From Flagellimonas allohymeniacidonis (GTDB taxonomy: Bacteria; Bacteroidota; Bacteroidia; Flavobacteriales; Flavobacteriaceae), in assembly GCF_004296335.1 (NCBI RefSeq), contig NZ_SGIU01000001.1, forward strand, positions 411,290-475,289: a stretch of 64,000 bases of DNA. Reading direction: 5' to 3'. Each line of letters begins with the position of its first letter. The stretch's first letter is position 1. Shown here one piece after another: positions 6,191 through 53,966 of the stretch. The notes under the pieces were generated by a model. The model was not told where the DNA came from. It searched no databases and saw only the letters and a list, made by a program, of their open reading frames with translations. The position numbers and the translations under genes are program-made.

Positions 6191-6997
6191 TTGATAAACC
6201 CTACCGAACTACTCGAGACCGCTATTACCGCAGCTATTGAGGCTGGACAGGCCATAATGTCGATTTATGAAAACAGTGCTGTCGACTTAACTTTAAAGGA
6301 CGACAACTCTCCTCTTACCAATGCGGATTTAGCCTCTAATTCGATTATCATGGGTTACTTAAAGAAGACGGGTATCCCTATCATTAGCGAGGAAAACAAA
6401 AAAATTGAGTATTCCGTCCGAAGGGATTGGAAGACGGTTTGGCTGGTTGACCCACTGGATGGAACAAAGGAGTTCATTAAAAGAAACGGAGAGTTTACAG
6501 TGAACATCGCACTAGTTGTGGATGGAGTCCCAACGATGGGCGTGATTTATGTGCCGGTAAGCAAGGAACTATTCTTTTCAGAGAATAAGGGAGAAAAAGC
6601 CTTTAAAACTGTAGTGGGCCCAAATTTTAAATTCAACAAGGAGTTTTTGAAGGATCAATACCGCATAACACCCAATGTTGAAGTCAAAAAGGCAATAAAG
6701 GTAGTTGGAAGTAGGTCACACATGAATCCTGAAACGGAAAACTTTGTTTCCCATCTACAAAAGGAACATAATGAGGTCGAAATAGTTTCGAAAGGAAGCT
6801 CCTTGAAGTTCTGCATAGTTGCAGAGGGCAAAGCTGATATTTATCCGAGATTTGCCCCAACAATGGAATGGGATACTGCGGCCGGGCATGCAATATGCAA
6901 CGCTGCTGGACTTACAGTTACCTCAAAGGGTACGGAAGAAGAACTTCGTTACAACAAAGAAAATTTACTTAACAATCATTTTATTGTGAAGAAGTAA
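6191..6997 (+). CDS. cysQ: 3'(2'),5'-bisphosphate nucleotidase CysQ
   Basis: An inositol-monophosphatase-superfamily enzyme of 268 aa that hydrolyses PAP, the by-product of sulfotransferases (and of PAPS reductase), to AMP. The Mg-binding motif WLVDPLDGTKEF (D87, D90, G91, T92) and the second site EWDTAAGHA (D228) are intact. The start is TTG; it gives the normal family N-terminus (about 20 residues before the AGQAIMSIY helix), and no in-frame ATG fits as well. The stop directly abuts the ATG of the DUF2061 gene. Its place at the head of cysC-cysD-cysN fits recycling of PAP made during polysaccharide sulfation. Confidence 0.92.
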   Translation: MINPTELLETAITAAIEAGQAIMSIYENSAVDLTLKDDNSPLTNADLASNSIIMGYLKKTGIPIISEENKKIEYSVRRDWKTVWLVDPLDGTKEFIKRNGEFTVNIALVVDGVPTMGVIYVPVSKELFFSENKGEKAFKTVVGPNFKFNKEFLKDQYRITPNVEVKKAIKVVGSRSHMNPETENFVSHLQKEHNEVEIVSKGSSLKFCIVAEGKADIYPRFAPTMEWDTAAGHAICNAAGLTVTSKGTEEELRYNKENLLNNHFIVKK

Positions 6998-7425
6998 TGG
7001 AAGCAGTTTCTTATAAACGACATCTTGCTAAGACCATTACTTGGAGGGTTATTGGAACCTTGGATACTATAGTTCTATCGTGGTTGATTACTGGAAACCC
7101 ACTTATGGGCTTTCAAATAGGAACTTCAGAATTAATCACAAAGATGGTTTTGTACTATGTGCATGAGCGAGTCTGGCTGCACGTTCAAGTTGTCAATAGT
7201 AAGCGTAGGCATTTGCTGAAAACCATCACGTGGAGATGTATTGGAACCCTGGATACGGTGGTGATATCCTGGATAATATCTGGTGACCCCTTTATTGGAT
7301 TTAAAATAGGAGCTGTAGAAATTATAACAAAGATGGCTTTATATTACTTGCACGAACGTGCATGGTATCGCATTAATTTTGGGCTAGACAGAAGACAAAG
7401 AGCAAAAAAGTGGAAAAGAACATAA
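6997..7425 (+). CDS. Tandem DUF2061 membrane protein in the sulfate-activation operon
   Basis: A 142-aa protein made of two copies of the DUF2061 domain (about residues 4-60 and 69-127). Each copy has a KTITWR start, then GTLDT, a hydrophobic helix containing SW, a G-D/N-P turn, a GF-x-IG segment, an ITKM helix and an ending YYxHER-W. The repeats are clearly homologous, so the gene arose by internal duplication. Each repeat contains one or two membrane helices. The function of DUF2061 is unknown. It overlaps the cysQ stop by 1 nt and the cysC start by 16 nt, so translational coupling is likely. No other sulfate-transport candidate is seen in the operon. Confidence 0.85.
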   Translation: MEAVSYKRHLAKTITWRVIGTLDTIVLSWLITGNPLMGFQIGTSELITKMVLYYVHERVWLHVQVVNSKRRHLLKTITWRCIGTLDTVVISWIISGDPFIGFKIGAVEIITKMALYYLHERAWYRINFGLDRRQRAKKWKRT

Positions 7426-8000
7426 TAACATACCAATACAAAGTAAGTGTTGAGGAAAGGAGGAAGTCCAACGGACATAACTCATTCCTTATCTTCTTTA
7501 CAGGTCTTTCTGGTTCAGGAAAATCGACCATAGCCAATGCCTTGGAGCAAAAATTATTTGAACTTGGGATAAAAACCTATGTTTTGGATGGGGACAATGT
7601 TCGTAGGGGTATTAATAAAAACCTATCTTTCAGTCCAGAGGACCGTTCAGAAAATAACAGAAGAATCGGGGAGATTGCCAAGCTGTTTGTGGATGCAGGA
7701 GTGGTTGTACTTGCGGCCTTTGTGGCTCCGTATGCCAAGGATAGAAAACATATACAGCAAACGGTCGGGGAAGAGAACTATGTTGAGGTGTTTGTAAATG
7801 CCAGTTTGGAAGAATGCGAAAAAAGGGATGTGAAAGGATTGTATAGGAAAGCCCGAAAAGGAGAAATAAAAAATATGACCGGAATATCAGCGCCCTACGA
7901 AGCTCCCATTGAACCCGATGTGGAGGTAACACATCTAAACGCTTTGGAAGAATGCGTTGAGATCATTTTTAAGAAAATCAAACCAAAACTTCAGAGGTGA
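7410..8000 (+). CDS. cysC: Adenylyl-sulfate (APS) kinase
   Basis: APS kinase of 196 aa, making PAPS from APS and ATP. The P-loop GLSGSGKST lies near residues 31-39, followed by DGDNVRRGINKNLSFSPEDR (APS and Mg site) and KGLYRKARKGEIKNMTGISA. The start is GTG and overlaps the DUF2061 gene by 16 nt; it gives the family N-terminus ending in RRKSNGHNSF, and no ATG is available nearby. cysD starts 2 nt after the stop. With no PAPS reductase in view, the PAPS is likely used for sulfation. Confidence 0.95.
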   Translation: MEKNIITYQYKVSVEERRKSNGHNSFLIFFTGLSGSGKSTIANALEQKLFELGIKTYVLDGDNVRRGINKNLSFSPEDRSENNRRIGEIAKLFVDAGVVVLAAFVAPYAKDRKHIQQTVGEENYVEVFVNASLEECEKRDVKGLYRKARKGEIKNMTGISAPYEAPIEPDVEVTHLNALEECVEIIFKKIKPKLQR

Positions 8001-8002
8001 CC

Positions 8003-8908
8003 ATGAGTAAATATTATTTAGATTATTTGGAAGAACTGGAATCTGAGGCAGTTTATGTACTGAGAGAGGTTTGGGCACAGTTCCAAAATCCGGTGATATT
8101 GTTCTCCGGAGGAAAAGATTCAATCGTAGTTACCCATTTGGCCCAAAAGGCCTTCCATCCCAGCAAAATCCCTTTCGCATTATTGCATGTAGATACGGGA
8201 CATAATTTTCCGGAAACCATAAAATTCAGGAATGATTTGGTCCAGTCCTTGGGTGTTAGACTATTGGTGGGTTCAGTTCAGGAATCCATTGATACCGGAA
8301 GGGTATCTGAAGAAAAAGGTAAAAATGCCACTAGGAACGCACTTCAAATTACCACATTACTCGATGCCATCGAAGAAAATAAAATTGACTGCGCCATAGG
8401 TGGGGGAAGAAGAGACGAGGAAAAGGCAAGGGCCAAGGAAAGGTTTTTTTCGCATAGGGATGATTTTGGACAATGGGACCCAAAAAATCAACGTCCGGAA
8501 TTGTGGAATCTTTTCAATGGGAAGCATTTTGAAGGAGAACATTTTCGAGTATTCCCTATTAGCAATTGGACTGAAATGGATGTCTGGAATTATATCAAAA
8601 GAGAGAACATACAAATACCCTCATTGTATTTTGCCCATGAACGCGAAGTGGTTTGGAGGAACGACTCTTGGATTCCAAACTCGGAATTTCTACAATTGGA
8701 TGATAGGGAAGAAATCGTTCAAAAGAAAATACGGTTTAGGACCCTAGGCGACATAACCATTACCGGAGGTATTGAATCCAATGCCGATACCTTAGAGAAA
8801 ATAGTTGATGAAGTTGCTGCAATGCGGCATACGGAACGGGGTAACCGCAGTGATGATAAAAGGTCTGAAACTGCTATGGAAGACAGAAAAAAACAAGGAT
8901 ACTTTTAA
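8003..8908 (+). CDS. cysD: Sulfate adenylyltransferase subunit 2
   Basis: The catalytic ATP-sulfurylase subunit (301 aa from the ATG), which forms APS from sulfate and ATP in complex with CysN. The PP-loop SGGKDS is at residues 35-40; GGGRRDEEKARAKERFFS, the EHFRVFPISNWTE segment and the C-terminal RSDDKRSETAMEDRKKQGYF region are typical. An in-frame GTG at 7997 would add two residues and overlap the cysC stop, but the ATG at 8003 matches the usual N-terminus better. cysN follows after 11 nt. Confidence 0.95.
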   Translation: MSKYYLDYLEELESEAVYVLREVWAQFQNPVILFSGGKDSIVVTHLAQKAFHPSKIPFALLHVDTGHNFPETIKFRNDLVQSLGVRLLVGSVQESIDTGRVSEEKGKNATRNALQITTLLDAIEENKIDCAIGGGRRDEEKARAKERFFSHRDDFGQWDPKNQRPELWNLFNGKHFEGEHFRVFPISNWTEMDVWNYIKRENIQIPSLYFAHEREVVWRNDSWIPNSEFLQLDDREEIVQKKIRFRTLGDITITGGIESNADTLEKIVDEVAAMRHTERGNRSDDKRSETAMEDRKKQGYF

Positions 8909-8919: not shown

Positions 8920-10173
8920 ATGGTGGATAACAATCAGTTATTACGATTTACAACTGCTGGCAGTGTGGATGATGGTAAAAGTACACTTATAGGACGCTTG
9001 CTGTATGACTCCAAATCAATTTTTGAAGACCAGTTGGAGGCTATTGAAAACACGAGTAGAAAAAAAGGTCATGAAGGCGTTGATTTAGCCTTATTTACCG
9101 ATGGTTTGAGAGATGAAAGGGAGCAGGGCATTACCATAGATGTAGCCTACAGGTATTTTACGACTCCCAAAAGAAAATTTATAATTGCCGATACTCCAGG
9201 GCACATTCAATACACCCGTAACATGGTCACTGGAGCCTCCACTGCCAATGCGGCCATTATCTTGGTAGATGCCCGGCACGGGGTAATCGAGCAGACGAAA
9301 AGGCATGCTTTTATAGCATCATTGCTTCAAATTCCGCACATCATTGTTTGTATCAATAAGATGGACCTAGTTGATTTTGATGAATCGGTTTATCATAAAA
9401 TCACCGCTCAGTTCGAGGAGTTTTCATCCAAACTTTTGGTAAAGGATATTCGATTTATTCCGATAAGTGCATTGCTAGGGGATAATGTGGTGAACCGTTC
9501 AGAGAACATGGGGTGGTATCAAGGAGCTCCGTTATTACACACTTTGGAAACACTGCACATTAGTAGCGATTTGAATAAAGTGGACGCTCGTTTTCCAGTT
9601 CAAACTGTTTTACGACCCCAAAGCGAAACTTTCAGGGATTATCGGGGCTATGCCGGAAGGGTTTCAAGCGGGATTTTTCGAGTTGGGGATGAAGTTACGG
9701 TGATGCCCTCTGGGTTCACTTCTACAATTAAATCTTTGGATACCATTTCCGGTCCTTTGGATGAGGTCATTGCTCCCATGTCAATTTCAATGACTCTGGA
9801 AGATGATATCGATGTGGCAAGGGGGGATATGATTGTTCGCTCCAATAATAAGCCCGAGGCGAAACAAGATTTGGAAGTAATGCTCTGTTGGTTGAACGAT
9901 AGCCCAGCTTCGCCCAGAACCAAATTCACGGTAAAACATACCTCCAATGAACAAAAGGCAATGATAAAGGAGGTGATATATAAAATAGATATCAATACAC
10001 TTCGCAGGCGCACCGATGATGTAGAATTGGGGATGAACGACATATGCAAGGTAAAACTAAGGACCACCAAACCCCTTATGGTCGATTCGTATCGCGAAAA
10101 TAGAGTTACGGGAAGTATCATCTTAATAGACGATAGAACAAACGAAACCGTGGCGGCAGGGATGGTCGTTTAG
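8920..10173 (+). CDS. cysN: Sulfate adenylyltransferase subunit 1 (GTPase)
   Basis: The regulatory GTPase subunit of ATP sulfurylase, 417 aa, with an elongation-factor-like fold. The G1 motif GSVDDGKST is at residues 14-22, DTPGHIQYTRNMVTGAS is G3, and NKMD is G4. The protein lacks the C-terminal APS kinase domain found in NodQ/CysNC fusions, consistent with the separate cysC. It is the last gene of the cys block; 85 A/T-rich nt then separate it from the carbamoyltransferase, which may still be on the same transcript. Confidence 0.95.
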   Translation: MVDNNQLLRFTTAGSVDDGKSTLIGRLLYDSKSIFEDQLEAIENTSRKKGHEGVDLALFTDGLRDEREQGITIDVAYRYFTTPKRKFIIADTPGHIQYTRNMVTGASTANAAIILVDARHGVIEQTKRHAFIASLLQIPHIIVCINKMDLVDFDESVYHKITAQFEEFSSKLLVKDIRFIPISALLGDNVVNRSENMGWYQGAPLLHTLETLHISSDLNKVDARFPVQTVLRPQSETFRDYRGYAGRVSSGIFRVGDEVTVMPSGFTSTIKSLDTISGPLDEVIAPMSISMTLEDDIDVARGDMIVRSNNKPEAKQDLEVMLCWLNDSPASPRTKFTVKHTSNEQKAMIKEVIYKIDINTLRRRTDDVELGMNDICKVKLRTTKPLMVDSYRENRVTGSIILIDDRTNETVAAGMVV

Positions 10174-10258: not shown

Positions 10259-11947
10259 ATGACAATTTTAGGGTTAAATTATTACTTCCATGACTCTACG
10301 GCCTGTATTCTTGTGGATGGACAACTTGTAGCGGCCATAGAGGAAGAACGGTTGAATAGGGACAAACATACCCGAGTATTTCCACAAATGGCGGTTGACC
10401 GCTGTTTGAAGATAGCCGGGTTGACCTATTCTGATATTGATCATATAGCAGTATCGATTAAACCTACACATAATCTTGGAAAAAAAATGGGGCATTGTGT
10501 AACCCATTTGAAGACCTTGAAACCTTTTATTAACCATGAGTTTGTTCATGCGTATAACAAACAGAAAGGATTTTGGAACTGGTACAAGTACCACTACAAT
10601 AGCAAGAAAGAGGGTCCTGAGGTACACTTTATTCCACACCACTTTAGTCATGCCCCTGGGTCGTTTTTCGTTTCTCCGTATAAGGAAGCGGCATTGTTGG
10701 GAATTGATGGTTCTGGGGAATGGGCAACCACTTGGTTGGGTTATGGTAAGGATAACGAGGTAAAATGCCTAGGGGAATCCTTTTTCCCCCATTCATTGGG
10801 ATCATTCTATGAATCCATTACCCAGTTTTGTGGTTTTCGAACAAGTTATGATGAAGGAAAGACGATGGGCTTGGCCCCTATGGGTGACCCAGAAGTGTTT
10901 AAGGACGAAGTGGGAAAAATGGTCCGCGTGGACGAAAAAGGAAGTTTGCACTTTGATTTGAGTTACTTCAATTTTCAAAACATGAGTTGGAGGAGACTTT
11001 CACCAAAATTCTATAAAACATTTGGTAAGGGCCGAAAGCACGGGGAGGATTTTGAAAAACATCACATGGATTTGGCCGCGGCTTTTCAGAGGGTCTTGGA
11101 AGATAGAGTATTGGAAATCTGTGATATCCTGCACAAAAAAACAAAGGCAGATTATCTTGTGATATCCGGAGGAGTTTCCTTGAATAGTGTAATGAATGGT
11201 CGCATAGTGCGCGAAAGCGCCTTTAAGGATGTATACGTTATGCCCGCAGCAGGGGATAATGGAACCGCTATAGGAGCGGCATATTACCTATATAACGGAC
11301 TGTTCAAAAAAGAGCGCAATTTTGTTCATGTAGACCCCTATGTCGGGACCAGCTACACCAATGAGGAGATAGAAAAAGTCCTGAAGGGCGCAAAATTGGA
11401 TTATGAATATCATGAAGATATTTGCGAAAAGGCGGCATCACTTCTTGAAAAAGGGAAAATTATTGGATGGTTTCAAGGAAAAATGGAAATCGGTCCCAGA
11501 GCTTTGGGCAGCAGAAGTATATTGGCCAATCCGGCCTTTCCCGATATGAAGGACAAAATCAATGCCGAAGTAAAGTTTAGAGAGGCTTATCGTCCTTTTG
11601 CCCCATCGGCAATTGTTGAGGCCAAAGATGACTTTTTTGATTTAGAGGTTGAAGCACCATTTATGTTAAAGGTTTGCAATGTACTACCAGAAAAACAAAG
11701 TGTAATTCCTGCAGTGACCCATGTTGATGGCAGTGCTCGACTGCAAACCGTAAGAAAAGAACTTCATCCAAGATATTATGAGGTCATTGAAAAATTGGGT
11801 AAGAAAACAGAGGTTCCGGTAGTTTTGAACACAAGTTTCAATATTCAGGGAGAACCTGTTGTAGAATCGCCTAAAGATGCCATAAGATGCTATTTTTCCA
11901 CAGGACTGGATGCTTTGGTCATCGGAAATTATGTGTTAGTGAAGTAA
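10259..11947 (+). CDS. NodU/CmcH-family carbamoyltransferase
   Basis: A 562-aa O-carbamoyltransferase of the NodU/TobZ type, which moves a carbamoyl group from carbamoyl phosphate to a hydroxyl through carbamoyl-adenylate. Visible motifs are HHFSHAPGSFF (about residues 127-137), the ASKHA-fold LLGIDGSGEW loop, SGGVSLNSVMNGR (about 302-314) and EIGPRALGSRSI (about 409-420). The C-terminal domain ends with VPVVLNTSFNIQGEPVVESP. It sits between the sulfate-activation block and the acyltransferase genes, so a polysaccharide hydroxyl is the likely acceptor, although small-molecule targets are known for the family. Confidence 0.9.
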   Translation: MTILGLNYYFHDSTACILVDGQLVAAIEEERLNRDKHTRVFPQMAVDRCLKIAGLTYSDIDHIAVSIKPTHNLGKKMGHCVTHLKTLKPFINHEFVHAYNKQKGFWNWYKYHYNSKKEGPEVHFIPHHFSHAPGSFFVSPYKEAALLGIDGSGEWATTWLGYGKDNEVKCLGESFFPHSLGSFYESITQFCGFRTSYDEGKTMGLAPMGDPEVFKDEVGKMVRVDEKGSLHFDLSYFNFQNMSWRRLSPKFYKTFGKGRKHGEDFEKHHMDLAAAFQRVLEDRVLEICDILHKKTKADYLVISGGVSLNSVMNGRIVRESAFKDVYVMPAAGDNGTAIGAAYYLYNGLFKKERNFVHVDPYVGTSYTNEEIEKVLKGAKLDYEYHEDICEKAASLLEKGKIIGWFQGKMEIGPRALGSRSILANPAFPDMKDKINAEVKFREAYRPFAPSAIVEAKDDFFDLEVEAPFMLKVCNVLPEKQSVIPAVTHVDGSARLQTVRKELHPRYYEVIEKLGKKTEVPVVLNTSFNIQGEPVVESPKDAIRCYFSTGLDALVIGNYVLVK

Positions 11948-11953
11948 GTGAAT

Positions 11954-12682
11954 ATGGAAAGTTTTTTCTCAGAAGATTATGAGGCCCACACAATCCACAA
12001 TTGGATTGATAGGGCCAATGTTAATAGTACTGAGAGGGAACTAATTGATAAAGTATTAAAAAACAAGGATTCCATTGCCATGGAAGCCGGAACAGGTTCG
12101 GGAGTGATTGCCTTCTATCTCGAGTCTTTGGGAGTAAAGGAAGTTCATGCTTTTGATATCATCGAGGCCATGGTAACCAAAGCTAGAAACTCTGCCAAGG
12201 AACGAAATTCAAAAGTGAACTTTGAGCAAGCCAATGCCATTGCACTTACCTGTTACGCGGACTCCAAGTTTAACTACCTTTTTTATCTTCAGCAAGTGTT
12301 GAGCATGGTACCGTACAAAGAACTTCCCAGTGCGTTAAAAGAAGGTCTTCGGGTGGGGTCCGATGATGCAACCTATGTGTTCAGCTTTATGGACTTCAGC
12401 TCAAGATGGTATAATGGCCTTTTACTTTTTTTAAGAGGTATTGCACTTTTGCTGCAAGGAGTTAAACCTAAATATCGTGGAATTCCAGAACTGGTCGTCG
12501 ATGGAAAGTATAATTTTAAATTTTTTGGTAAAAATCAGTTCTGTATTCAGTGGTATCGATTAAGGGAAATTGAGGCCCTTGTCAAAAAAATGGGGTATCA
12601 GGTGCTAGAGTCCTATAGTGGTGGACAAATATATTCGAATAGCCAGCAAAACCTATTCTTGATTTGTAAAAAGAAGGTCTAA
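11954..12682 (+). CDS. SAM-dependent class I methyltransferase
   Basis: A 242-aa Rossmann-type methyltransferase. Motif I is AMEAGTGSGVIAFYLE (about residues 38-53), then VHAFDIIEAM with the acidic residue that binds the SAM ribose, and a post-I segment NFEQANAIAL. A hydrophobic stretch (GLLLFLRGIALLLQGV) near residue 160 may touch the membrane. It starts 6 nt after the carbamoyltransferase stop; a GTG at 11948 is an alternative start. Co-location suggests methylation of a sugar in the same polymer; the substrate cannot be read from the sequence. Confidence 0.8.
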   Translation: MESFFSEDYEAHTIHNWIDRANVNSTERELIDKVLKNKDSIAMEAGTGSGVIAFYLESLGVKEVHAFDIIEAMVTKARNSAKERNSKVNFEQANAIALTCYADSKFNYLFYLQQVLSMVPYKELPSALKEGLRVGSDDATYVFSFMDFSSRWYNGLLLFLRGIALLLQGVKPKYRGIPELVVDGKYNFKFFGKNQFCIQWYRLREIEALVKKMGYQVLESYSGGQIYSNSQQNLFLICKKKV

Positions 12683-12694: not shown

Positions 12695-14140
12695 ATGTTA
12701 TTCAATAGTTTGGATTTCTTCATCTTTCTGCCTATTGTCTACATCTGCTATTGGGCTTTTTTACGTAAGACAGGCCAGAGAAATGTACTATTGGTCATAT
12801 CTAGCTATATCTTTTATGGTTGGTGGGATTACCGGTTTTTATCCTTGATATTGATTTCTACGCTCATAGATTTTTTTGTTGGGCAAGCTGTGTATAATTC
12901 CAACTCCGTTTCTAAAAAACGCCTATTCGTATCTATCAGTGTTTGTCTAAATCTTGGGATTTTAGGTTTTTTCAAATACTTCAACTTTTTTGTTGACTCC
13001 TTTTTGGATTCGATTCGCTTTTTTGGCATACAAATGGAACCGTCATGGACATTGAACGTAATACTCCCGGTGGGGATATCTTTTTACACTTTTCAGACAT
13101 TGTCCTATACTCTTGATATCTATCGTGGAAAATTACAACCAACCCATAATTTCATTTCGTTTGCGGCTTTTGTTGCCTTTTTTCCACAATTGGTGGCTGG
13201 ACCGATTGAAAGAGCTTCCAATTTACTCCCGCAGATTTCCAGAACCCGGGTGTTTCGGTATAACCAGCAGGTCGAGGGGTTACGTTTGATGTTATGGGGA
13301 TTATTTAAAAAAGTAGCAATTGCTGATTCTTTGGCTCCTATTGTGGATGATATTTTTCTTAATCATGCAGCATATCCTTCATCGACTTTATTGCTTGGTG
13401 CTATTTTCTTTGGGTTTCAGATTTACGGCGACTTTTCTGGCTATAGTGATATTGCCATCGGAACCGCAAAACTGTTTGGCATTGAGTTAATGTCCAACTT
13501 TAAGTTCCCCTATTTTTCTAGGGATATTGCCGAATTTTGGCGAAGGTGGCACATATCTTTATCTACTTGGTTTCGCGATTATCTCTATATCCCATTAGGA
13601 GGGTCTAGGGTTAAAAAAATATTGACCATTCGAAATGTTTTTATAATATTTTTGGTGAGTGGTCTATGGCATGGGGCCAACTGGACCTTTGTCGTTTGGG
13701 GCCTTCTACATGCCGTATTGTTTCTGCCGCTTTTTTTCCTAAAATCGAATAGACGTTATTTGGACACACCCAATGTTCTTAATTCGGTACATACGTTTTT
13801 TTCTGAAGTGCCCCGCATCTTATGGACCTTTGCGATGGTAACTTTCGGTTGGATATTTTTCAGGAGCGAATCCTTGGGGGAAGCGGTTCACTATTTCCAA
13901 GGGATGTTTGATTTTTCTTGGGATTCCTACCTTCATCCGAGGGGATACCGTATGATTGATTATTTTATTCTCCTTATTTGCTTTGTCCTTTTTGAATACT
14001 TTATTCGAAAAGATGAGCGAAATCCACTTGGATTTTCGCATAGATCAATACGTTGGGCTAGTTACTGCCTCTTGATGTTTTTAATCATACTGTTCTACGA
14101 TGATGGTGTGGACCGATCATTTATTTATTTTCAATTTTGA
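12695..14140 (+). CDS. MBOAT-family O-acyltransferase (AlgI-like), copy 1
   Basis: A 481-aa integral membrane protein with about 10-11 hydrophobic segments. It carries the AlgI/DltB hallmarks FWRRWHISLSTWFRDYLYIP and SGLWHGANWTF; the conserved catalytic His is H326. MBOAT proteins of this branch pass acyl groups, usually acetyl, across the membrane for O-acylation of extracytoplasmic polysaccharide. The next gene, an SGNH-like protein, overlaps or abuts its stop, forming an AlgI/AlgJ-like pair. It is clearly paralogous to the MBOAT gene at 33.6-35.0 kb: same length and same His position. Confidence 0.92.
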   Translation: MLFNSLDFFIFLPIVYICYWAFLRKTGQRNVLLVISSYIFYGWWDYRFLSLILISTLIDFFVGQAVYNSNSVSKKRLFVSISVCLNLGILGFFKYFNFFVDSFLDSIRFFGIQMEPSWTLNVILPVGISFYTFQTLSYTLDIYRGKLQPTHNFISFAAFVAFFPQLVAGPIERASNLLPQISRTRVFRYNQQVEGLRLMLWGLFKKVAIADSLAPIVDDIFLNHAAYPSSTLLLGAIFFGFQIYGDFSGYSDIAIGTAKLFGIELMSNFKFPYFSRDIAEFWRRWHISLSTWFRDYLYIPLGGSRVKKILTIRNVFIIFLVSGLWHGANWTFVVWGLLHAVLFLPLFFLKSNRRYLDTPNVLNSVHTFFSEVPRILWTFAMVTFGWIFFRSESLGEAVHYFQGMFDFSWDSYLHPRGYRMIDYFILLICFVLFEYFIRKDERNPLGFSHRSIRWASYCLLMFLIILFYDDGVDRSFIYFQF

Positions 14141-14142
14141 TT

Positions 14143-15090
14143 ATGGCAAAGTTTATCGCACGTTGTATTTTTTTTGGATTTGTATTCTTCCTCTGCTTTG
14201 AACTTTTGGTGCGTGCTTTCCATTTACACAATCAGAGGCCCATAAGATATTTGGATGAACAAGATGTGGAGAAATGGGTGCCACATCAGGAGGGGTATTC
14301 CGTTGTGGGCAATCGAAGGCAGAATGTGGGTCACTATAGAATCAATTCTTTCGGATTTAATTCAGTTTACGATAGTTATAGACCTAAAGAGTCAGAGAAA
14401 TCGGTGGCTTTGATAGGTGATTCTTTTATAGAAGGATTTCATCAAGATTTTGACAACTCCTTAGGTCAAAAAATTGAAGGGAAACTCAAGAGTAATTCTA
14501 AAGTATTTGAGTTTGGTTATGCAGGCTATGATTTTGCCGATCAATTGCATCTGATTCACTCATATTCGGTACTTTTCGACGATATGGACCAAGTATTGAT
14601 CTATATGCGTTTTATTGATGACCTTGAGCGGTCTGAATACGAGGTAAGCAGCAGATTGTCGTTAGATACACCGATAAGCAGACTGGCCAAACATTTTAAA
14701 TCTATTGTTTATTTAAAGGATATCGGGCTATTGGACCCCGTAACCCACGCTATCTCCAAATTGGGCAATTTACGGGCAAAAAACAGGGTGTCAGATTCTA
14801 CCGAAGAGACCGAAAGCGACATTACTTTTGCTAGAATCCAAAATTTCAAGGATTTGGTAGACTTTTATGACTATGATAAAAGTAAGAATGTGCTTTTGGT
14901 GGATTATAGGCTTTGTCCTTCCGAATTTTTGGATTTTTTGAAAGAAAACGAATTCAAAACCATAGACTTTGGAGAATCCTTGGCCCGGTCGAAAAGCCCC
15001 ACTGACCTAATCTATGACCAACACTGGAATGATCACGGTCGGGAATTGATTGCCAAGGAAATTGCAAATTACCTTAATAACTTTGACTAG
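14143..15090 (+). CDS. Membrane-anchored SGNH-like O-acyltransferase partner (AlgJ/AlgX/DltD-like), copy 1
   Basis: A 315-aa protein with an N-terminal membrane anchor (about residues 5-25) and an extracytoplasmic SGNH-like domain. Block I is LIGDSFIEG with the candidate nucleophile Ser; near the C-terminus YDQHWNDHG is the D-x-HWN-x-x-G pattern common in AlgJ/AlgX/DltD-like proteins and would supply the catalytic His. The ATG at 14143 is 2 nt after the MBOAT stop; an in-frame TTG at 14137 overlaps that stop. It likely receives acyl groups from the MBOAT partner and attaches them to the polysaccharide. It runs head-on into the FemAB-like gene, with a 10-nt gap. Confidence 0.75.
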   Translation: MAKFIARCIFFGFVFFLCFELLVRAFHLHNQRPIRYLDEQDVEKWVPHQEGYSVVGNRRQNVGHYRINSFGFNSVYDSYRPKESEKSVALIGDSFIEGFHQDFDNSLGQKIEGKLKSNSKVFEFGYAGYDFADQLHLIHSYSVLFDDMDQVLIYMRFIDDLERSEYEVSSRLSLDTPISRLAKHFKSIVYLKDIGLLDPVTHAISKLGNLRAKNRVSDSTEETESDITFARIQNFKDLVDFYDYDKSKNVLLVDYRLCPSEFLDFLKENEFKTIDFGESLARSKSPTDLIYDQHWNDHGRELIAKEIANYLNNFD

Positions 15091-21948: not shown

Positions 21949-21970
21949 GGTCCAATATCTTTAAGTCTTT

Positions 21971-40251: not shown

Positions 40252-40252
40252 A

Positions 40253-46964: not shown

Positions 46965-48098
46965 TTGGAGATAAAGGTGTCTAGCAAAATTTGGCTTTCT
47001 TCACCCCACATGGGCGGTACGGAAGAAAAGTATGTGGAACAGGCTTTCAATACGAATTGGATAGCTCCTTTGGGTCCTAATGTTCAAGGATTTGAACAGG
47101 ATATTGAAGAATATATAGGATCGGACGTTCACGTTGCCTGTTTGAGCTCGGGTACAGCAGCTATACACTTAGCTTTACAACTGTTAGGCGTGGGGCAAGG
47201 TGATGAAGTACTCTGTCAAAGTTTCACTTTTGCCGCTTCCGCCAATCCTGTAACCTATCTGGGAGCTTCTCCTATTTTTGTTGATAGTGAGCCTGACACC
47301 TGGAACATTTCCCCTGAACTTTTGGAAAAAGCGATTCTTTCGAGGCTCGAAGTTGGTAAAAAACCAAAAGCTATAATAGCTGTCCATCTTTATGGAATGC
47401 CCTATAAAGTAGATGAGATTTCATCTATTTCACAGAAATATGACATCCCGGTCATTGAAGACAGCGCTGAAGCCTTAGGAAGTGAATATCATGGAACTAA
47501 GTGCGGGAGTTTTGGAGAAATGGCAGTATTATCGTTTAACGGAAACAAAATCATTACAACCTCGGGAGGCGGAGCTCTGTTGTCTAAAAACAACGATCAA
47601 AAGGATAAGGCAATTTTTTTGGCTACCCAGGCAAGGGATAATGCACCTCATTATCAACATACCCATATAGGCTATAATTACAGAATGAGCAACGTCCTGG
47701 CAGGAATAGGAAGAGGTCAAATGGAAGTTCTGCAGAATAGGGTGGATGCACGAAGATCCAATTTTGAGTTCTATAAGAAACATTTGTCAGAATTGACTCA
47801 AATCAGTTTTTTGGATGAAAAGGAGGGCTACTATTGCAATAGATGGTTAACTTGTATACTAACCCCTTCTTTTGAAATTAGAGAGAAGATACGACTTGCT
47901 TTGAATGAAGAGAATATCGAATCAAGACCATTATGGAAACCGATGCACCTTCAACCGGTTTTTGCTGGTGATATAACGTTTGTTAATGGGGTGAGTGAGG
48001 ATTTGTTTCAAAGGGGCCTTTGTTTGCCCAGTGGCTCTAATTTGGAACAGAGTGATTTAACGCGTATCTGCGGTATAATTGAAAATACGATAGGATGA
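46965..48098 (+). CDS. DegT/DnrJ/EryC1/StrS-type PLP aminotransferase (PglE-like)
   Basis: A 377-aa PLP-dependent sugar aminotransferase. The N-terminus IWLSSPHMGGTEEKYV and WIAPLGPNVQGFEQD fit the PglE branch, which aminates UDP-4-keto-6-deoxy-GlcNAc. SSGTAAIHLAL binds PLP phosphate, EDSAEALGS carries the Asp, and the PLP lysine is in SFNGNKIITTSGGG. The start is TTG at 46965 or GTG at 46977, with no suitable ATG. It overlaps the PglF-type dehydratase by 4 nt; together they predict UDP-4-amino-4,6-dideoxy-N-acetylhexosamine, the precursor of bacillosamine or FucNAc4N-like sugars. Confidence 0.88.
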   Translation: MEIKVSSKIWLSSPHMGGTEEKYVEQAFNTNWIAPLGPNVQGFEQDIEEYIGSDVHVACLSSGTAAIHLALQLLGVGQGDEVLCQSFTFAASANPVTYLGASPIFVDSEPDTWNISPELLEKAILSRLEVGKKPKAIIAVHLYGMPYKVDEISSISQKYDIPVIEDSAEALGSEYHGTKCGSFGEMAVLSFNGNKIITTSGGGALLSKNNDQKDKAIFLATQARDNAPHYQHTHIGYNYRMSNVLAGIGRGQMEVLQNRVDARRSNFEFYKKHLSELTQISFLDEKEGYYCNRWLTCILTPSFEIREKIRLALNEENIESRPLWKPMHLQPVFAGDITFVNGVSEDLFQRGLCLPSGSNLEQSDLTRICGIIENTIG

Positions 48099-50041
48099 TT
48101 AGAAAATACTTATTTGAGAACCGTAAGCACTACGCCTCAAAATGGACAGTACTTTTCATCGATTTATGTATTGTTGCCATTTCTTTTATAGTAGCGTACT
48201 TTATTAGGTTCAATTTGAGCTTCGATTTCGATGTTCAAAAATTATGGACCCAACTTCCGGTAGTTATTGTGCTTTTTCTCGTTGCATTTTTAATATCTGG
48301 AAGTTATAAAGGAGTTGTTCGCCATACCGGAATTAAGGATGTATATGCAATTTTCAATGCGATATGTTTAGCCAGTATTGGCGCGATAGGTGTGGTTTTG
48401 ACAAACCGTTTTTTGGAATTGGTCAACGAATTCACGATACCTCTTTCAATTATCATTATTAACAGCTTACTTACTTTCTTGGCTCTTACTTTCTCTAGGT
48501 ACGTCTTCAAACTGGGCTACGAAAGGTTGATTCAGACAAATGAAGTCCCTACAAAGAATGTAATGTTGTACGGAGCCGGTGAATCGGGGATCATTACGCA
48601 TAACACCCTGACCAACCATTCTCAAATGAAGGTCAAGGTTGTTGGTTTTGTCGATAACAACTTGCAGAAGATTGGGAAGCAAATCAATGGCGTAAAGGTA
48701 TTCGACAAGTCCATTCTTACACCAGAATTTGTTAGATTCAACAACATTACCGAGATAATCTTTTCTATACAAAACATTCCGCCAAAACAGTTACGTGGAT
48801 TAGTTAATGAAATTGTAGATCTACCCGTTAAAGTCAAAATAATCCCTCCGGTTGAGGATTGGATAAACGGGGAACTCAAAGTGTCCCAGATCAAGCGGGT
48901 TCAAATTGAGGACTTACTCGATAGACCACCAATTAAGATTAAGAACAGTCGAATTGCCAAAGATTTTGACGACAAGGTGATCATGGTAACAGGAGGTGCA
49001 GGATCTATAGGAAGTGAGTTGGTGAGGCAGATATGCAAATACAACTATAGAACACTAATAGTTGTAGATCAGGCTGAGTCGGCCCTATATGATTTACAGC
49101 AAGAGTTAAAGCAATCAGGGTTTTTTAATTATGTCCCTGTAGTCGGGGATATTAGGGACAAGAACAAAATGCGTGTTCTTTTTGAGGAATATAAGCCTGA
49201 CAGAATTTTTCATGCCGCTGCATACAAGCACGTACCACTTATGGAACAAAATCCATACGAGGCAGTGAAAATCAATGTAGCCGGCACCAAGAATATTGTT
49301 GACCTTGCCGTTGACTTTAAGGTGGAAAAATTTGTTTTTGTATCAACGGACAAGGCAGTGAACCCTACCAATGTAATGGGGGCCACCAAGCGGATTGCTG
49401 AAATGTACATTAGTTGCAGGCAACAAGAAGGAAAAACCAAATTTATCACCACACGATTCGGTAATGTGTTGGGTTCAAATGGTTCTGTTATACCATTGTT
49501 TAGAAAACAAATAGAAAAGGGAGGTCCTTTAACGGTTACCCACAAAGAAATCACCCGATATTTTATGACTATTCCGGAAGCTTCCCAACTGGTCTTGGAA
49601 GCAGGCGCCATGGGCAAGGGAGGAGAGATTTTCATATTCGATATGGGAGAGTCCGTTAAGATATTGGATTTGGCCAAGAACATGATTCGATTATCGGGAT
49701 TAAAATACCCTGAAGAAGTTGACATTAAAATAACGGGACTTCGTCCAGGGGAAAAGTTGTACGAGGAGTTGTTGGCCAATGGGGAAAACACCCTTCCCAC
49801 ATACCATGATAAAATTATGATTAGTAAAGTAAGGGAAATAGATTATGGCAATACCCGATCAATGATTGACGAACTATGCATCTCCAACCTATTTTTCAAG
49901 GACAATGTAGTTCAATTAATGAAAAGGATAGTCCCAGAATACATCTCCAACAATTCTGATTTTTGTAAATTGGACACGAAGAAGGGGGAATTCAACCCAG
50001 ATGAGGATAAAAGCAAGATTGTTTCTCAACTCAACAACTAA
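48095..50041 (+). CDS. PglF/WbpM/CapD-type UDP-N-acetylhexosamine 4,6-dehydratase
   Basis: A 648-aa membrane-anchored nucleotide-sugar dehydratase. Four membrane helices occupy about residues 20-140, a first Rossmann-like domain (LYGAGESGIITHN) about 150-270, and the catalytic SDR domain begins with VTGGAGSIGSELVRQI near residue 298. FVSTDKAVNPTNVMGATKR carries the WbpM-type active site with K replacing part of the usual YxxxK. It makes UDP-4-keto-6-deoxy sugar from UDP-GlcNAc. The 4-nt overlap with the aminotransferase and 13-nt gap to wza support one operon. Confidence 0.92.
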   Translation: MIRKYLFENRKHYASKWTVLFIDLCIVAISFIVAYFIRFNLSFDFDVQKLWTQLPVVIVLFLVAFLISGSYKGVVRHTGIKDVYAIFNAICLASIGAIGVVLTNRFLELVNEFTIPLSIIIINSLLTFLALTFSRYVFKLGYERLIQTNEVPTKNVMLYGAGESGIITHNTLTNHSQMKVKVVGFVDNNLQKIGKQINGVKVFDKSILTPEFVRFNNITEIIFSIQNIPPKQLRGLVNEIVDLPVKVKIIPPVEDWINGELKVSQIKRVQIEDLLDRPPIKIKNSRIAKDFDDKVIMVTGGAGSIGSELVRQICKYNYRTLIVVDQAESALYDLQQELKQSGFFNYVPVVGDIRDKNKMRVLFEEYKPDRIFHAAAYKHVPLMEQNPYEAVKINVAGTKNIVDLAVDFKVEKFVFVSTDKAVNPTNVMGATKRIAEMYISCRQQEGKTKFITTRFGNVLGSNGSVIPLFRKQIEKGGPLTVTHKEITRYFMTIPEASQLVLEAGAMGKGGEIFIFDMGESVKILDLAKNMIRLSGLKYPEEVDIKITGLRPGEKLYEELLANGENTLPTYHDKIMISKVREIDYGNTRSMIDELCISNLFFKDNVVQLMKRIVPEYISNNSDFCKLDTKKGEFNPDEDKSKIVSQLNN

Positions 50042-50054
50042 ATACTCATATCCA

Positions 50055-50819
50055 ATGAATCTAAAACTCAAGCTGGTATGCTTATCAGCATCAGCATTAC
50101 TTGTTTTTTCATGTGCCTCAAAACAGGAGGTGGTCTATTTCCAAGATGCCCAAGAATTTGAAACCTTGGTTGACGATAATTCTTTCACCACCAAATTCAA
50201 AGTGGATGATTTGATCAGTATCAATGTTTCAACATTGGACCCCGAGGCCAGTGCACCCTTTAATCTCTTTCGGGGAGCTGAAGAAGGCGGCATTCGACCT
50301 GAACAAGTGAACTATTTAGTGGATAAAAATGGTGAAATTGATTTTCCTGTTATTGGAAAGGTAAAGATTGCTGGGTTGTCTCCGAGCGAAACACAAGAAT
50401 TGCTCACGGAAAAACTAAAAGACTATCTAAAAAATCCAATTATTAACATTAGAATTCGAAATTTTACGGTTACTATTTTAGGGGCCGTGAACAGACCTGG
50501 GACATACCAAGTGAATGGAGAACAGATTACTATTTTGGAAGCAATTGGTTTAGCTGGTGATATCAATATAAAAGGTAGACGGGATAATGTAATGGTGGTT
50601 AGGGACTTTGACGGTACAAAGGTTTATAATCGTGTTAACTTAAACAGTAAGCAGGCATTTAAATCTCCCGTCTATTATTTAACGCAAAATGATGTTATCT
50701 ATGTTGAACCAAACCGATCAGGAAAGACAGCATCAAATTTGGACCAAAGAGCCTCTATTGCGGTTTCCATAATTTCCGTTTTGATTACATCAACTGTGGT
50801 ATTGCTTACAAGGAATTAA
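50055..50819 (+). CDS. wza: Polysaccharide export outer-membrane lipoprotein (Wza-like)
   Basis: A 254-aa Wza/OPX-family lipoprotein. The ATG at 50055 gives a proper signal peptide with lipobox LVFSC (C20); the frame extends upstream into the dehydratase gene but without a good start. A poly_export domain covers about residues 45-125 (YLVDKNGEIDFPVIGKV), and an SLBB domain about 130-215 (VTILGAVNRPGTYQV). A C-terminal hydrophobic helix (SIISVLITSTVVLL) could insert in the outer membrane as in Wza. It forms the exit channel for the polysaccharide; wzc follows after 32 nt. Confidence 0.92.
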   Translation: MNLKLKLVCLSASALLVFSCASKQEVVYFQDAQEFETLVDDNSFTTKFKVDDLISINVSTLDPEASAPFNLFRGAEEGGIRPEQVNYLVDKNGEIDFPVIGKVKIAGLSPSETQELLTEKLKDYLKNPIINIRIRNFTVTILGAVNRPGTYQVNGEQITILEAIGLAGDINIKGRRDNVMVVRDFDGTKVYNRVNLNSKQAFKSPVYYLTQNDVIYVEPNRSGKTASNLDQRASIAVSIISVLITSTVVLLTRN

Positions 50820-50851: not shown

Positions 50852-53224
50852 ATGAACAAATCTGAAATAGATCTAAAAGGTTTATTAACAGTATACACAA
50901 AACATTGGAAGTGGTTCGCCGCCTGTACAATTGTAGCGCTTGGTCTTGCTTTTCTAAATCTGAGATATGCAATACCCCAATATAATGCCTCGGCTAAAAT
51001 TCTAATATTACAGGAAAAAACCGCCACTTCGGAGTTAAGTGTACTACAAGATTTAAATGTACTACCTGGGGGGAAAACAGAGATAAAGGATGAAATTCAA
51101 ATCCTTAGGGCCCGAAGCAATTTCATGCAGGTAATTCGCGATCTTCGGCTTAATGTGCGTTACTTCGTAATGGGTAACGTTAAAGATACCGAGCTCTATG
51201 GTGATGCGAATTACCCCTTTTCGATAGACTTTTTGGCGGCAGACTCAATTATCAATAAATCCGAACATGAGTTCTATGTGGATCTAAATTCAGACACATC
51301 CGTGATGTACTCTGAATTTGAAAACGGTCCGTTTAAAAATTATGACTTTGGCACCAATATCAGCACAAAAATTGGAGACATTGTATTGACACCTTACTGG
51401 GATCGAATGAATCGATTTCAAAATAAGCGGTTGAAAGTAGTGGTTAATCCAATACCTTCTGTAGTTCAACGCTATCGGTCCAAGATAAAAATCAGTCCTG
51501 CTGATGAACTTTCCAACATAGTTAATATATCCCTTACCGATGCCATACAGAAACGGGCTATGGATTTGATTGACAACCTCATAGCGACCTATAATAAAAA
51601 TGGGGTAGAGGACAAGAAGGCGGTAGCGGACAGAACTTCTAGATTTATCAATGATCGTATAGCAGATATTTACAATAACCTCTCGAGTGTTGATGAATCT
51701 GCAGAGACTTTTAAGTCAAGCCGCGGAATAGCAGATTTGGGTTCGCAGTCTAGTGTAAATTTCACACAGAGTGCGGCTGGCGAAAGGGACTTGCAAGATG
51801 CCAGTATTCAGTTGAATATCGCTAACTCCATGAAGGATCTCATAAGCAATCAAAGTGATTATGAGATTATACCGACCAATGTCGGGCTGTCCGATCAAGG
51901 GATTTCTACTTCGGCCCAGAGATATAACGAGCTGGTGGCTCAGCGAAATCGGCTTTTAGAAAGTTCAAATGAGAAAAACCCGGTAATTGTAAAGCTCGAC
52001 CAACAGTTGGAAAGTCTAAGAAGAGGTATGCAGTCCAGTTTAAACAATGTGACCAATAATCTTGACTTGCGGGTAAACAGTTTAAGCAAACAACTCTCCC
52101 AAATCAACTCCCGTATCTATGCAGCTCCCAGTAATGAGAGGGCGCTAAGGGATATTTCAAGAAAGCAGCAAACCACAGAGTCATTATACCTTTATCTTTT
52201 ACAGAAGCGAGAAGAATCCCAAATTACTTTTGCTTCTGCCACACCAAAATCCAAGGTTGTCGATGCGGCCTATGCTGAAAATCCATTTCCGGTATCTCCA
52301 AAACCAAAAATCATTTATTTAGCGGCTCTTATGGTTGGCCTTATGATTCCTTTTGGGGTAATTTATACCAGTATTTTGTTGGATGATAAAATCCACAACA
52401 AGATAGACTTAGAAAAAATGGTTCAGGGCATACCCGTGCTAGCTGAGATTCCCAAATTGGGCAGAAAGGAAGAAAAATTGGTGAAAAATGCGGATAGGTC
52501 TGTTTTGGCGGAATCTTTAAGAATCTTAAGAACAAATTTGGACTACACCCTTAGATCAAAGAAAAACAGTAAAAGGGGAAGTATTATTTTTGTAACATCC
52601 AGTGTTCCTGGGGAAGGAAAAACCTTGGTTTCCTCGAACTTGTCCATGATATTTGCCGACACCAACAAAAAGGTCCTATTAATTGGTGCTGACATCAGAA
52701 ATCCCAAGCTGTACACTTTCTTTTCAAACAGTAATGAGATCGATCAACTTGGAAAACCGAAACATAGAGCCACTGTTGGCCTTACGGAATACCTACTGGG
52801 TAGTGCGAAGTCGGTTCGTGATATTGTAAATACGACTTTGGTCCATTCCAATACCATTGATGTAATCTATTCTGGAAAGATTCCACCCAACCCAACCGAA
52901 TTGTTGATGAGCAGTCGCATGAAAGACTTGTTGGATGAGGTATCCGAATTATACGACTATATCGTTGTTGATACGGCTCCCTTGATGGTAGTTACCGATA
53001 CACTTCTGATTAATCAATATGCGGATAAGTTGCTTTACATAACCAAAGCAGGGGTTACACAAAGAAAAGTTCTTGATTTCCCTCTTAAATTGCATAAAGA
53101 AGGAAAGCTAAAAGGATTGGCATTCGTAGTCAACAATGTGAAGGGCTCTAATTTAGGTTATGGCGGAAGGTATGGCTATGGATATGGAAAAACCGTCAAA
53201 AAATGGTGGAATTTTGCCTCCTGA
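50852..53224 (+). CDS. wzc: Polysaccharide co-polymerase / BY-kinase (Wzc-like)
   Basis: A 790-aa inner-membrane co-polymerase with a cytoplasmic tyrosine kinase domain. Two membrane helices flank a long periplasmic coiled-coil part (about residues 30-50 and 490-512). The kinase has Walker A SSVPGEGKTLVSSNL (about 583-597), Walker A' LLIGADIRNPKL (about 608-619) and Walker B YIVVDTAPLMVVTD (about 703-716). The Tyr/Gly-rich tail near residues 770-782 has four Tyr for autophosphorylation. It controls chain length and couples to Wza. The stop is 1 nt from the end of the convergent cpsB-type phosphatase gene. Confidence 0.94.
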   Translation: MNKSEIDLKGLLTVYTKHWKWFAACTIVALGLAFLNLRYAIPQYNASAKILILQEKTATSELSVLQDLNVLPGGKTEIKDEIQILRARSNFMQVIRDLRLNVRYFVMGNVKDTELYGDANYPFSIDFLAADSIINKSEHEFYVDLNSDTSVMYSEFENGPFKNYDFGTNISTKIGDIVLTPYWDRMNRFQNKRLKVVVNPIPSVVQRYRSKIKISPADELSNIVNISLTDAIQKRAMDLIDNLIATYNKNGVEDKKAVADRTSRFINDRIADIYNNLSSVDESAETFKSSRGIADLGSQSSVNFTQSAAGERDLQDASIQLNIANSMKDLISNQSDYEIIPTNVGLSDQGISTSAQRYNELVAQRNRLLESSNEKNPVIVKLDQQLESLRRGMQSSLNNVTNNLDLRVNSLSKQLSQINSRIYAAPSNERALRDISRKQQTTESLYLYLLQKREESQITFASATPKSKVVDAAYAENPFPVSPKPKIIYLAALMVGLMIPFGVIYTSILLDDKIHNKIDLEKMVQGIPVLAEIPKLGRKEEKLVKNADRSVLAESLRILRTNLDYTLRSKKNSKRGSIIFVTSSVPGEGKTLVSSNLSMIFADTNKKVLLIGADIRNPKLYTFFSNSNEIDQLGKPKHRATVGLTEYLLGSAKSVRDIVNTTLVHSNTIDVIYSGKIPPNPTELLMSSRMKDLLDEVSELYDYIVVDTAPLMVVTDTLLINQYADKLLYITKAGVTQRKVLDFPLKLHKEGKLKGLAFVVNNVKGSNLGYGGRYGYGYGKTVKKWWNFAS

Positions 53225-53225
53225 T

Positions 53226-53966
53226 TCAATAAAAGTTCAAAATCGTATTCTCAATTATTGGCAGTAAGAGATTCAAGGTGCTCTTTCGGATTCTGATTTC
53301 CTTTATCTGACTTATGTGCGTTATATGATGAGCATCTGAGGAGATAAAGTCAATATACCCGGCCTTGAGCAAACTAAGTGCTACCTTTTGAATTTCTGGA
53401 CCATAATAACCTCCCAAAGACAGAATATTGAGCTGAAACGATATTCCTTTTGATTTAAAGGACTCGTATACACCAAATGTATTGTGGTAATAGGCGTATC
53501 GTTCCGGATGGGCTAATATGGGAAACAATGATTTGCGAGCTATTTTTTGGATAGCACCTCCGAAACTCAGTGAGGGTTGCAAATAGGACATTTCAATTAA
53601 TATATACTCATTATTTAAGGGAAGCACGGCTTCGGCCTCCAGAATATTTTCAAAATTTTCATCGATCATATGTTCTGCGGCATAGTGTACTTTAATGTCG
53701 GTTAGTCCCTGCAGGGTTAACTCTGTCTTCAAAATATCAAACGCCTTTTTGATGGTGGAAGGCGTATTTGGATAATAATGATGCATGATGTGCGGGGTAC
53801 AAATAAAACTGGTCACCCCAAATTCTGAGAATGCCTTTATGAGATTTATAGAATCTTCGACCGTTTTGGCCCCATCATCAATTCCAGGTAATATATGGTT
53901 ATGTATATCTACCAGTCCATGAAGATAATCCGCTAAAAAAACTTTTCTTTCGAAAAAATGGAACAT
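53226..53966 (-). CDS. CpsB/YwqE-type PHP-family tyrosine phosphatase
   Basis: A 246-aa metal-dependent phosphatase of the PHP fold that dephosphorylates the BY-kinase tail. HNHILPGIDDGA (about residues 22-33), CTPHIMHHYYP, LAHPERYAYYH and SSDAHH supply the metal ligands. It is the expected partner of the Wzc-like kinase, yet it is transcribed towards it from the opposite strand and lies 21 nt after mnmE, so it is probably co-transcribed with mnmE. Confidence 0.92.
   Translation of the reverse strand: MFHFFERKVFLADYLHGLVDIHNHILPGIDDGAKTVEDSINLIKAFSEFGVTSFICTPHIMHHYYPNTPSTIKKAFDILKTELTLQGLTDIKVHYAAEHMIDENFENILEAEAVLPLNNEYILIEMSYLQPSLSFGGAIQKIARKSLFPILAHPERYAYYHNTFGVYESFKSKGISFQLNILSLGGYYGPEIQKVALSLLKAGYIDFISSDAHHITHISQIKEIRIRKSTLNLLLPIIENTILNFY

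Follow-up and report, generated by a model that had tools for sequence, protein, structure and literature searches.

A forty-gene locus of Flagellimonas allohymeniacidonis predicted to direct the synthesis of a sulfated, multiply decorated surface polysaccharide

The subject of this work is a block of forty genes, running from cysQ (starting at 6191) to cpsB (ending at 53966) over about 48 kb, within a window of 64,000 nucleotides of DNA from Flagellimonas allohymeniacidonis (G000:C1:411290-475289, in a genome of 3.57 Mb and 6 contigs). The block is likely to be a single cassette, placed at a variable site of Flagellimonas genomes and making one acidic, sulfated and decorated surface polysaccharide by the Wzx/Wzy route. 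Pfam was used to scan 50 of the 54 genes in the window, including all forty of the block, and NCBIfam was used for part of them. The matches to PF04932, PF03023, PF02397 (twice), PF02706/AAA_31 and PF02563 are those of a Wzx/Wzy capsule or extracellular polysaccharide (EPS) locus. All of the gene classes named in a preliminary description of this DNA are present, some of them called below threshold, by fold or by eye; its list lacked a lyase-like gene (43309-44817), two initiating transferases, a membrane open reading frame (ORF, 39862-40251) and a DUF2061 gene. Rfam and tRNA scans of the 64-kb window gave no matches.

We propose the following pathway. The initiating transferases PGT1 and PGT2 would begin each unit on a lipid carrier, the first sugar probably being the 4-amino-6-deoxy sugar of the PglF and DegT enzymes, and the GT4 glycosyltransferases would add glucuronic acid (GlcA), galacturonic acid (GalA) and probably N-acetylgalactosaminuronic acid (GalNAcA). 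A MurJ-type flippase and Wzy would then flip and polymerise the units, with Wzc, CpsB and Wza controlling the process and exporting the product. Sulfate would be supplied by a 3'-phosphoadenosine 5'-phosphosulfate (PAPS) cassette, and placed by the sulfotransferase ST1 in the cytosol and by a second sulfotransferase and its partner (ST2/h129 and ASST) at the membrane and in the periplasm. The remaining genes would attach carbamoyl and methyl groups, O-acyl groups through two MBOAT/SGNH pairs, and amides through the TupA, AsnB and FemAB proteins. The polymer is thus envisaged as probably sulfated and bearing several other groups.

Conservation of the block at a variable site

The preliminary description suggested looking for the same gene order in related genomes, and this was found: in a second species (G009), 39 of the 40 genes lie in the same order and orientation, with proteins 56-91% identical to those of the window, the sole gene missing being the amidotransferase AsnB3. 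Conservation on this scale shows that the block is one unit, to a degree beyond chance. Its boundaries fit as well, the OmpA gene on the left and the MnmE gene on the right flanking the site in relatives too. The conserved left flank also includes a fusion protein with GH3 and beta-lactamase domains (293-3205, plus strand). A tree was made from the flanking GT4a and MnmE genes of 39 of the 40 genomes in which the site could be analysed (two genes only, midpoint rooted). In this tree G009 pairs with G023, and the genome of the window with G004 and G056, with good support. The two genomes that carry the block are therefore not sisters, and their neighbours in the tree have other contents at the site, which implies that the block has either moved or been retained in one piece.

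The site itself is a variable polysaccharide position between conserved GT4/OmpA and MnmE genes. GT4a is found in 70 of 71 genomes of the genus and MnmE in 69. Forty of the 70 genomes with GT4a gave usable loci; 26 had the markers on different contigs or had no MnmE, and four were left out with the markers far apart on one contig (in the single-contig G067, the site may span the ends of the record). In all 40 usable genomes the two markers are on one contig, 41.5-98.2 kb apart and on opposite strands; four of these loci contain N. Using profiles seeded from the window, Wza, Wzc, CpsB and PGT were matched in every locus, as was PglF/SDR, whose profile also picks up other SDR genes, while DegT was matched in 38 and the lyase-like gene in 35.

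The decoration genes are distributed quite differently across the 40 loci: MBOAT is present in 24, AsnB in 19, carbamoyltransferase and TupA in 8 each, cysC in 5, and ASST and ST2 in 2 each. Loci were scored for seven classes (carbamoyl, MBOAT, AsnB, TupA, FemAB/GNAT, sulfotransferase and PAPS supply), these being chosen from the window and searched with profiles of its proteins, so that other loci may hold classes that were not counted. The window and G009 have all seven, the next locus has five, and the other 37 have four or fewer. Elsewhere in the genus most of the modules are found at the site alone or differently combined, and the rarity therefore lies in the combination.

Sulfotransferases, their link to CysC and the ST2-ASST pairing

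The block opens on the plus strand with the PAPS cassette, identified from Pfam and NCBIfam: cysQ (6191-6997), DUF2061 (6997-7425), cysC (7410-8000), cysD (7997-8908) and cysN (8920-10173), CysQ matching TIGR01331 above its cut-off. CysC was counted in the genus at more than 100 bits, matches of 29 bits or less being dropped as other P-loop proteins, and was found in 23 of the 71 genomes. A search covering the PF13469, ST1 and ST2 families found a sulfotransferase (PF13469 or ST1) in 21 of these 23 genomes and in none of the other 48. The PF13469 genes occur in 17 of the 71 genomes, all within the CysC group, and ST1 in 11, every one CysC-positive. Within the site, the cassette is present in 5 of the 40 loci; all five also hold a sulfotransferase there, as do 9 of the 35 loci with no cassette inside (Fisher p 0.003, uncorrected for relatedness).

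ST1 (19355-20119, plus strand) is a soluble protein that looks like a PAPS sulfotransferase by its fold. It has no Pfam or NCBIfam match, and a PDB sequence search gave matches at chance level only. The AlphaFold2 model is modest (mean pLDDT 60, from an alignment of 3 sequences). Nevertheless its ten best matches in a VIA-align comparison are all heparan sulfate N- and 3-O-sulfotransferases (Z 10.3-9.2), the best being NDST1 (Z 10.3 over 192 residues, 12% identity) and the 3-O-sulfotransferases scoring 9.2-9.8. Sulfotransferases account for 48 of the best 50 entries, counting three titled only Teg12 or Teg14, which we take to be sulfotransferases. Foldseek found nothing at E 0.001 with the same model, its top entries mixing G-protein chains with one sulfotransferase. 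Inspection by eye finds PAPS-site-like motifs in the sequence. In both the window and G009, ST1 points the opposite way to the two PGT genes that enclose it.

The second sulfotransferase is encoded on the minus strand as a catalytic part, ST2 (38862-39887), and an ORF with three transmembrane segments by simple hydropathy, h129 (39862-40251). ST2 scores 25.8 bits against Sulfotransfer_3 (PF13469; cut-off 27), and its relative in G036, from another family of the order, scores 33.4 bits. A PDB sequence search with ST2 gave chance-level matches only; PAPS-site-like motifs were again seen by eye. The G036 relative is a fused protein of 459 residues, with three predicted transmembrane segments before the sulfotransferase domain, and ST2 and h129 are probably a split form of such a membrane-anchored PAPS sulfotransferase. 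ST2 was found in 35 of 395 genomes drawn from the order. Of the 34 relatives other than the one in G036, 32 have an open frame that reaches 440 residues or more; G273 has an internal stop, and two relatives have frames of about 300 residues. The sequence of h129 shows no similarity to the fused N-terminus of G036 above that of shuffled sequences (z about 0), so that the link to the fused form rests on position, length and the three predicted segments. ST2 and h129 overlap by 26 bases at a run of eight A, and since the frames are offset at this run, they could be joined by slippage, or the products could be two coupled polypeptides. The same split, run and start codon are found in G009 (ST2 80% and h129 81% identical), the conservation of the run being weak evidence in our judgement, as genomes of this kind often use AAA for lysine.

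The neighbouring ASST-like protein (40417-41748, minus strand), which is of periplasmic type and has an N-terminal membrane anchor, belongs to PF14269 (130 bits, cut-off 27). The residues H185/H186, H268-x-N270, R292 and QH319D are common to the proteins of the window, G009 and G036. The HxN and R align with PDB entry 9kf4, and the QHD, which does not align there, was matched by eye; presumably these residues correspond to H252, H356, R374 and H436 of EcAST. His436 is the one active-site residue of EcAST named in the available part of PMC13426309. The AlphaFold2 model of ASST (pLDDT 36) is unusable, and the single sequence had no PDB sequence match. A profile of four sequences matches 9kf4 and 9kf6, both titled only Sulfotransferase (best E 2.9e-9). 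Given that 9kf2 is titled Cpz8 of caprazamycin synthesis, 9kf4, the only solved relative found for ASST apart from the like-titled 9kf6, is probably Cpz4.

ST2 and ASST are paired well beyond this genome. The ASST subfamily occurs in 40 of the 395 genomes of the order, and 33 of the 35 genomes with ST2 hold both, although relatedness inflates the hypergeometric value for this co-occurrence. In 18 of the 33, ASST immediately precedes ST2 on its upstream side and shares its strand, with 500-611 bases between the matches; eight genera in three families are represented among these 18. In the remaining 15 genomes the pair is divided between contigs. In 395 genomes drawn from the phylum, with a stricter cut (1e-40), the subfamily was found in 3, including the present one. 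The neighbours of the pair in G036 include a gene of Wzx type and another PF13469 gene. The idea that ASST genes in general track sulfation was rejected, PF14269 being found in 38 of the 71 genomes of the genus, a good number of which lack CysC; the strong members (above 100 bits, in G000, G009 and G002) are all in CysC genomes. In G002 (C95, L231), the PF14269 protein (115 bits) is one gene away from a PF13469 sulfotransferase, with a chromate-transporter-like membrane protein between and glycan-degradation genes nearby, both identified by eye.

How these enzymes work together can be read in two ways. There is somewhat less than an even chance that ST1, ST2 and ASST are three independent sulfotransferases acting at different positions, ST2 and ASST being neighbours because they share a substrate, with no relay. 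This is favoured by the PAPS-site-like motifs of both ST1 and ST2, by the glycosaminoglycan-type sulfotransferases at the top of the ST1 fold list, by the 15 genomes with the pair on different contigs, and by the lack of any carrier-making gene, such as a polyketide synthase (PKS), among the 50 scanned genes of the window. On the other side, ASST enzymes use aryl sulfates and not PAPS, as stated in the available part of PMC13426309, and ASST therefore needs a donor; moreover, almost all ST2 genomes also hold it.

A relay is a more tentative possibility. ST2/h129, working on the cytosolic side, would load sulfate from PAPS onto an aromatic carrier in the membrane, for example menaquinol or another phenol, and the anchored ASST would move it to the polysaccharide after flipping. 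The combination of a PAPS sulfotransferase and an ASST seen in the caprazamycin-type relay is present here. No PKS was found in the scanned window genes or in ten genes around the G036 pair, the rest of the genome not being searched, so that the carrier would need to be a phenol or quinol of the membrane, which is speculation. If true, such a relay would cross the inner membrane, solve the lack of periplasmic PAPS and give ASST a natural donor, and the ST2-ASST pair would be a conserved Flavobacteriales module. It is very improbable that ST2 has simply been broken by a frameshift in this strain and that the sulfation branch through ASST is dying, since, although a single long frame is usual among relatives, in place of the two overlapping ORFs of the window, and h129 does not resemble the fused G036 N-terminus, the same split in G009 means that the two reading frames have been maintained in both species.

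Sulfate supply and the unity of the two strands

The order cysQ-DUF2061-cysC-cysD-cysN is found in all 12 cassettes fetched from outside the site, and in G065; the exceptions are a second, rearranged set in G056 and, in G002, an extra CysC gene of a different kind (open frame of 648 residues). The genome of the window has a separate cysD/cysN/cysH set beside a gene that by eye resembles sulfite reductase. The assimilation set thus stands apart, making the cysDN of the window a second copy, and the cysC of the window is the only CysC found in the genome. The locus therefore combines a second cysDN copy, cysC and sulfotransferase genes, which is the content of a sulfated capsule locus.

Several points weigh against a single sulfated polysaccharide. 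The polymer is a prediction from the genes, and the plus and minus strand blocks could be regulated apart. The G009 locus does without AsnB3, so that not all three amidotransferases are essential. Only 7 of the 23 genomes with CysC have, in addition to the cassette, a CysD of the common assimilatory type (G000, G005, G009, G060, G065, G075 and G083), so that elsewhere the cassette may feed sulfur assimilation too; none is listed in the other 16, one of which, G002, has a third type. The use of CysC as a pure marker of sulfation, to which the 17 of 17 PF13469 genomes and 11 of 11 ST1 genomes had pointed, is weakened by the same observation, and the hypergeometric values for these counts take no account of relatedness. 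Finally, the CysH of this genome lacks the extra cysteine pairs that mark adenosine 5'-phosphosulfate reductases, and PAPS may therefore have a second use here.

These points bear on one further explanation, in which the plus strand block, from cysQ to SGNH1, is a separate system of sulfur assimilation and a small glycan modification set, adjoining the polysaccharide genes by chance. It is on a different strand from those genes, 16 CysC genomes have no listed assimilatory CysD, and carbamoyltransferase, MBOAT and SGNH genes occur at the site without the PAPS cassette in other genomes of the genus. However, this genome has its own assimilation set, PAPS sulfotransferases require PAPS, and every locus with the cassette inside the site has a sulfotransferase there. 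The two halves are also kept together in G009, and the whole-block conservation leads us to reject two unrelated systems, the outcome that the preliminary description had set against its own proposal. We therefore regard a chance neighbour as most unlikely, and retain the single cassette.

In many of the genomes that have the PAPS cassette, CysH is of another class (matching profile positions 3-161, not 2-156). Together with the missing assimilatory CysD, this suggests a swap between two routes of sulfate assimilation within one genus.

Predicted sugars, other decorations and known systems

The initiating transferases PGT1 (18605-19288) and PGT2 (20147-20779) are both on the minus strand and both in PF02397. 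They are followed on the same strand by GT4b, AsnB1 (21971-23872), GT4c, AsnB2 (25028-26881), the TupA-like ATP-grasp protein (26905-27864) and GT4d (together 20815-28998; Pfam and NCBIfam), and then by the Wzy polymerase, the flippase in the Wzx role and GT4e (28955-32603; PF04932, PF03023 and PF00534). The flippase (30098-31447, minus strand) is of the MurJ family and so outside the usual polysaccharide flippase families. Profile and PDB matches identify, at 35084-38726 on the minus strand, a TviB-like UDP-GlcNAc 6-dehydrogenase (554 bits, cut-off 592), a TuaD-like UDP-Glc dehydrogenase (528 bits, cut-off 700) and a WbpP/TviC-like C4-epimerase, which is close to WbpP/WbgU (PDB 1sb8, 6e-119). 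An SDR epimerase (41970-42995, minus strand), placed by family and PDB matches, is probably a UDP-glucuronate 4-epimerase, if its PDB relatives are what we take them to be. These genes predict N-acetylglucosaminuronic acid (GlcNAcA)/GalNAcA, GlcA and GalA donors. The TviB-like and WbpP/TviC-like genes, and weakly the match to VexL of the lyase-like gene, point to a residue of the GalNAcA type.

This lyase-like gene (43309-44817, plus strand; PF00544) has a signal sequence, lipoprotein-like by eye. It is near to pectate lyases (PDB 9buj, 1.6e-28) and more weakly to VexL (6fi2, 1.5e-7), which would fit 4-linked residues of galacturonic type. On the right are the DegT aminotransferase (46965-48098, plus strand) and the PglF/WbpM-type 4,6-dehydratase (48095-50041, plus strand), predicted to make the 4-amino-6-deoxy sugar, and then, by family matches, Wza (50001-50819, plus strand), Wzc (50852-53224, plus strand) and the CpsB phosphatase (53226-53966, minus strand).

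Further decoration genes follow the PAPS cassette on the plus strand: a NodU-type carbamoyltransferase (10259-11947; PF02543 and PF16861), an S-adenosylmethionine-dependent methyltransferase (11948-12682; PF13649 and others), and a probable O-acylation pair, MBOAT1 (12695-14140; PF03062) and the SGNH/AlgX-like SGNH1 (14137-15090; PF16822 and PF19040 below threshold). The second pair, SGNH2 (32673-33590) and MBOAT2 (33603-35045; PF03062), is on the minus strand; SGNH2 has no Pfam or NCBIfam match, and was recognised from its position and a GDS-like motif seen by eye. The sole NCBIfam match of the MBOATs is DltB, below its cut-off. FemAB1 (15101-16153), FemAB2 (16150-17238) and GNAT3 (17301-18542), on the minus strand, match PF02388 and PF13480 above cut-off and are predicted aminoacyl or acyl transferases. 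Just outside the locus, two minus strand frames (57229-57843 and 57846-58214) look like parts of one broken GNAT3-like gene, the match to GNAT3 covering the first of them.

All three AsnB proteins, including AsnB3 (44840-46654, minus strand; family match), have cysteine as their second residue. The TupA-like protein belongs to PF14305 (182 bits, cut-off 25), its PDB sequence search giving chance-level matches only. According to the available part of PMC11800379, the TupA-like domain of Cj1438C in Campylobacter amidates glucuronic acid, and by analogy the protein here points to an amide of a uronic acid with an amine or amino acid. The sulfated, acylated and amidated polyuronate first proposed for this locus fits the gene content, the whole-block conservation and the sulfation-gene statistics. 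It needs refining in that the single modules are common in the genus and only their combination is rare, that AsnB3 can be lost, and that the putative TupA product goes beyond a plain uronamide.

Loci of this general kind, for a sulfated capsule or EPS, are known; what is new is the predicted fold of ST1 and its link with CysC, the probable split of ST2/h129 and the ST2-ASST pairing. The comparisons below draw on the available parts of the papers cited. The capsule loci of Vibrio sp. KMM 8419 and Cobetia marina KMM 1449, whose polymers were found to be sulfated by nuclear magnetic resonance (PMC11641403, PMC11766843), also contain cysC, cysN and cysD (as second copies in Vibrio, and with cysQ in Cobetia) and sulfotransferase genes. 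They use ABC (Kps) export, neutral sugars, and sulfate with acetyl or glycerophosphate, whereas here there are Wzx/Wzy and uronic acid genes and additional carbamoyl, amide and ASST genes. Synechan of Synechocystis (PMC8205485) is likewise a bacterial sulfated extracellular polysaccharide, though a cyanobacterial one, compared here by its polymer. The HS:2 capsule locus of Campylobacter jejuni combines glucuronic acid with a TupA-like ATP-grasp in Cj1438C, which is fused to a GT2 and uses serinol-P or ethanolamine-P; here TupA is separate, with a putative amine partner (PMC11800379). In caprazamycin synthesis sulfate is described as moving in two steps, Cpz8 and Cpz4 carrying it first from PAPS to a triketide pyrone and next to a sugar (PMC4257720, PMC6731281). 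That system too has a PAPS sulfotransferase and an ASST, acting in sequence with the final acceptor on a sugar, whereas here no PKS was found, ST2 seems membrane-anchored, and the acceptor would be a polysaccharide.

The locus resembles that of the Vi antigen in its TviB-like dehydrogenase, its WbpP/WbgU-like epimerase and the weak VexL match of the lyase-like gene, but it has many more sugars and decorations, the TviB score is below cut-off, and the lyase is nearer to pectate lyases. Alginate is O-acetylated by AlgI, AlgJ and AlgX, an MBOAT with SGNH-type partners, against two MBOAT/SGNH pairs here. The literature matches listed from open-licence papers, in their available parts, described neither a polymer or locus with the complete decoration set nor a sulfotransferase-ASST relay acting on a polysaccharide and, judging by titles, included no study of a sulfated exopolysaccharide from Muricauda. 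An open-licence literature search found no paper on a polysaccharide cluster with at least three of carbamoyltransferase, sulfotransferase, MBOAT and asparagine synthase.

Bacterial sulfated polysaccharides are sought after, and the two marine capsule loci compared, as far as the available text describes them, give sulfate and one further group. With six decoration classes and its own PAPS supply in this locus, and other combinations in its relatives, the genus is well suited to linking single enzymes to the groups that they add.

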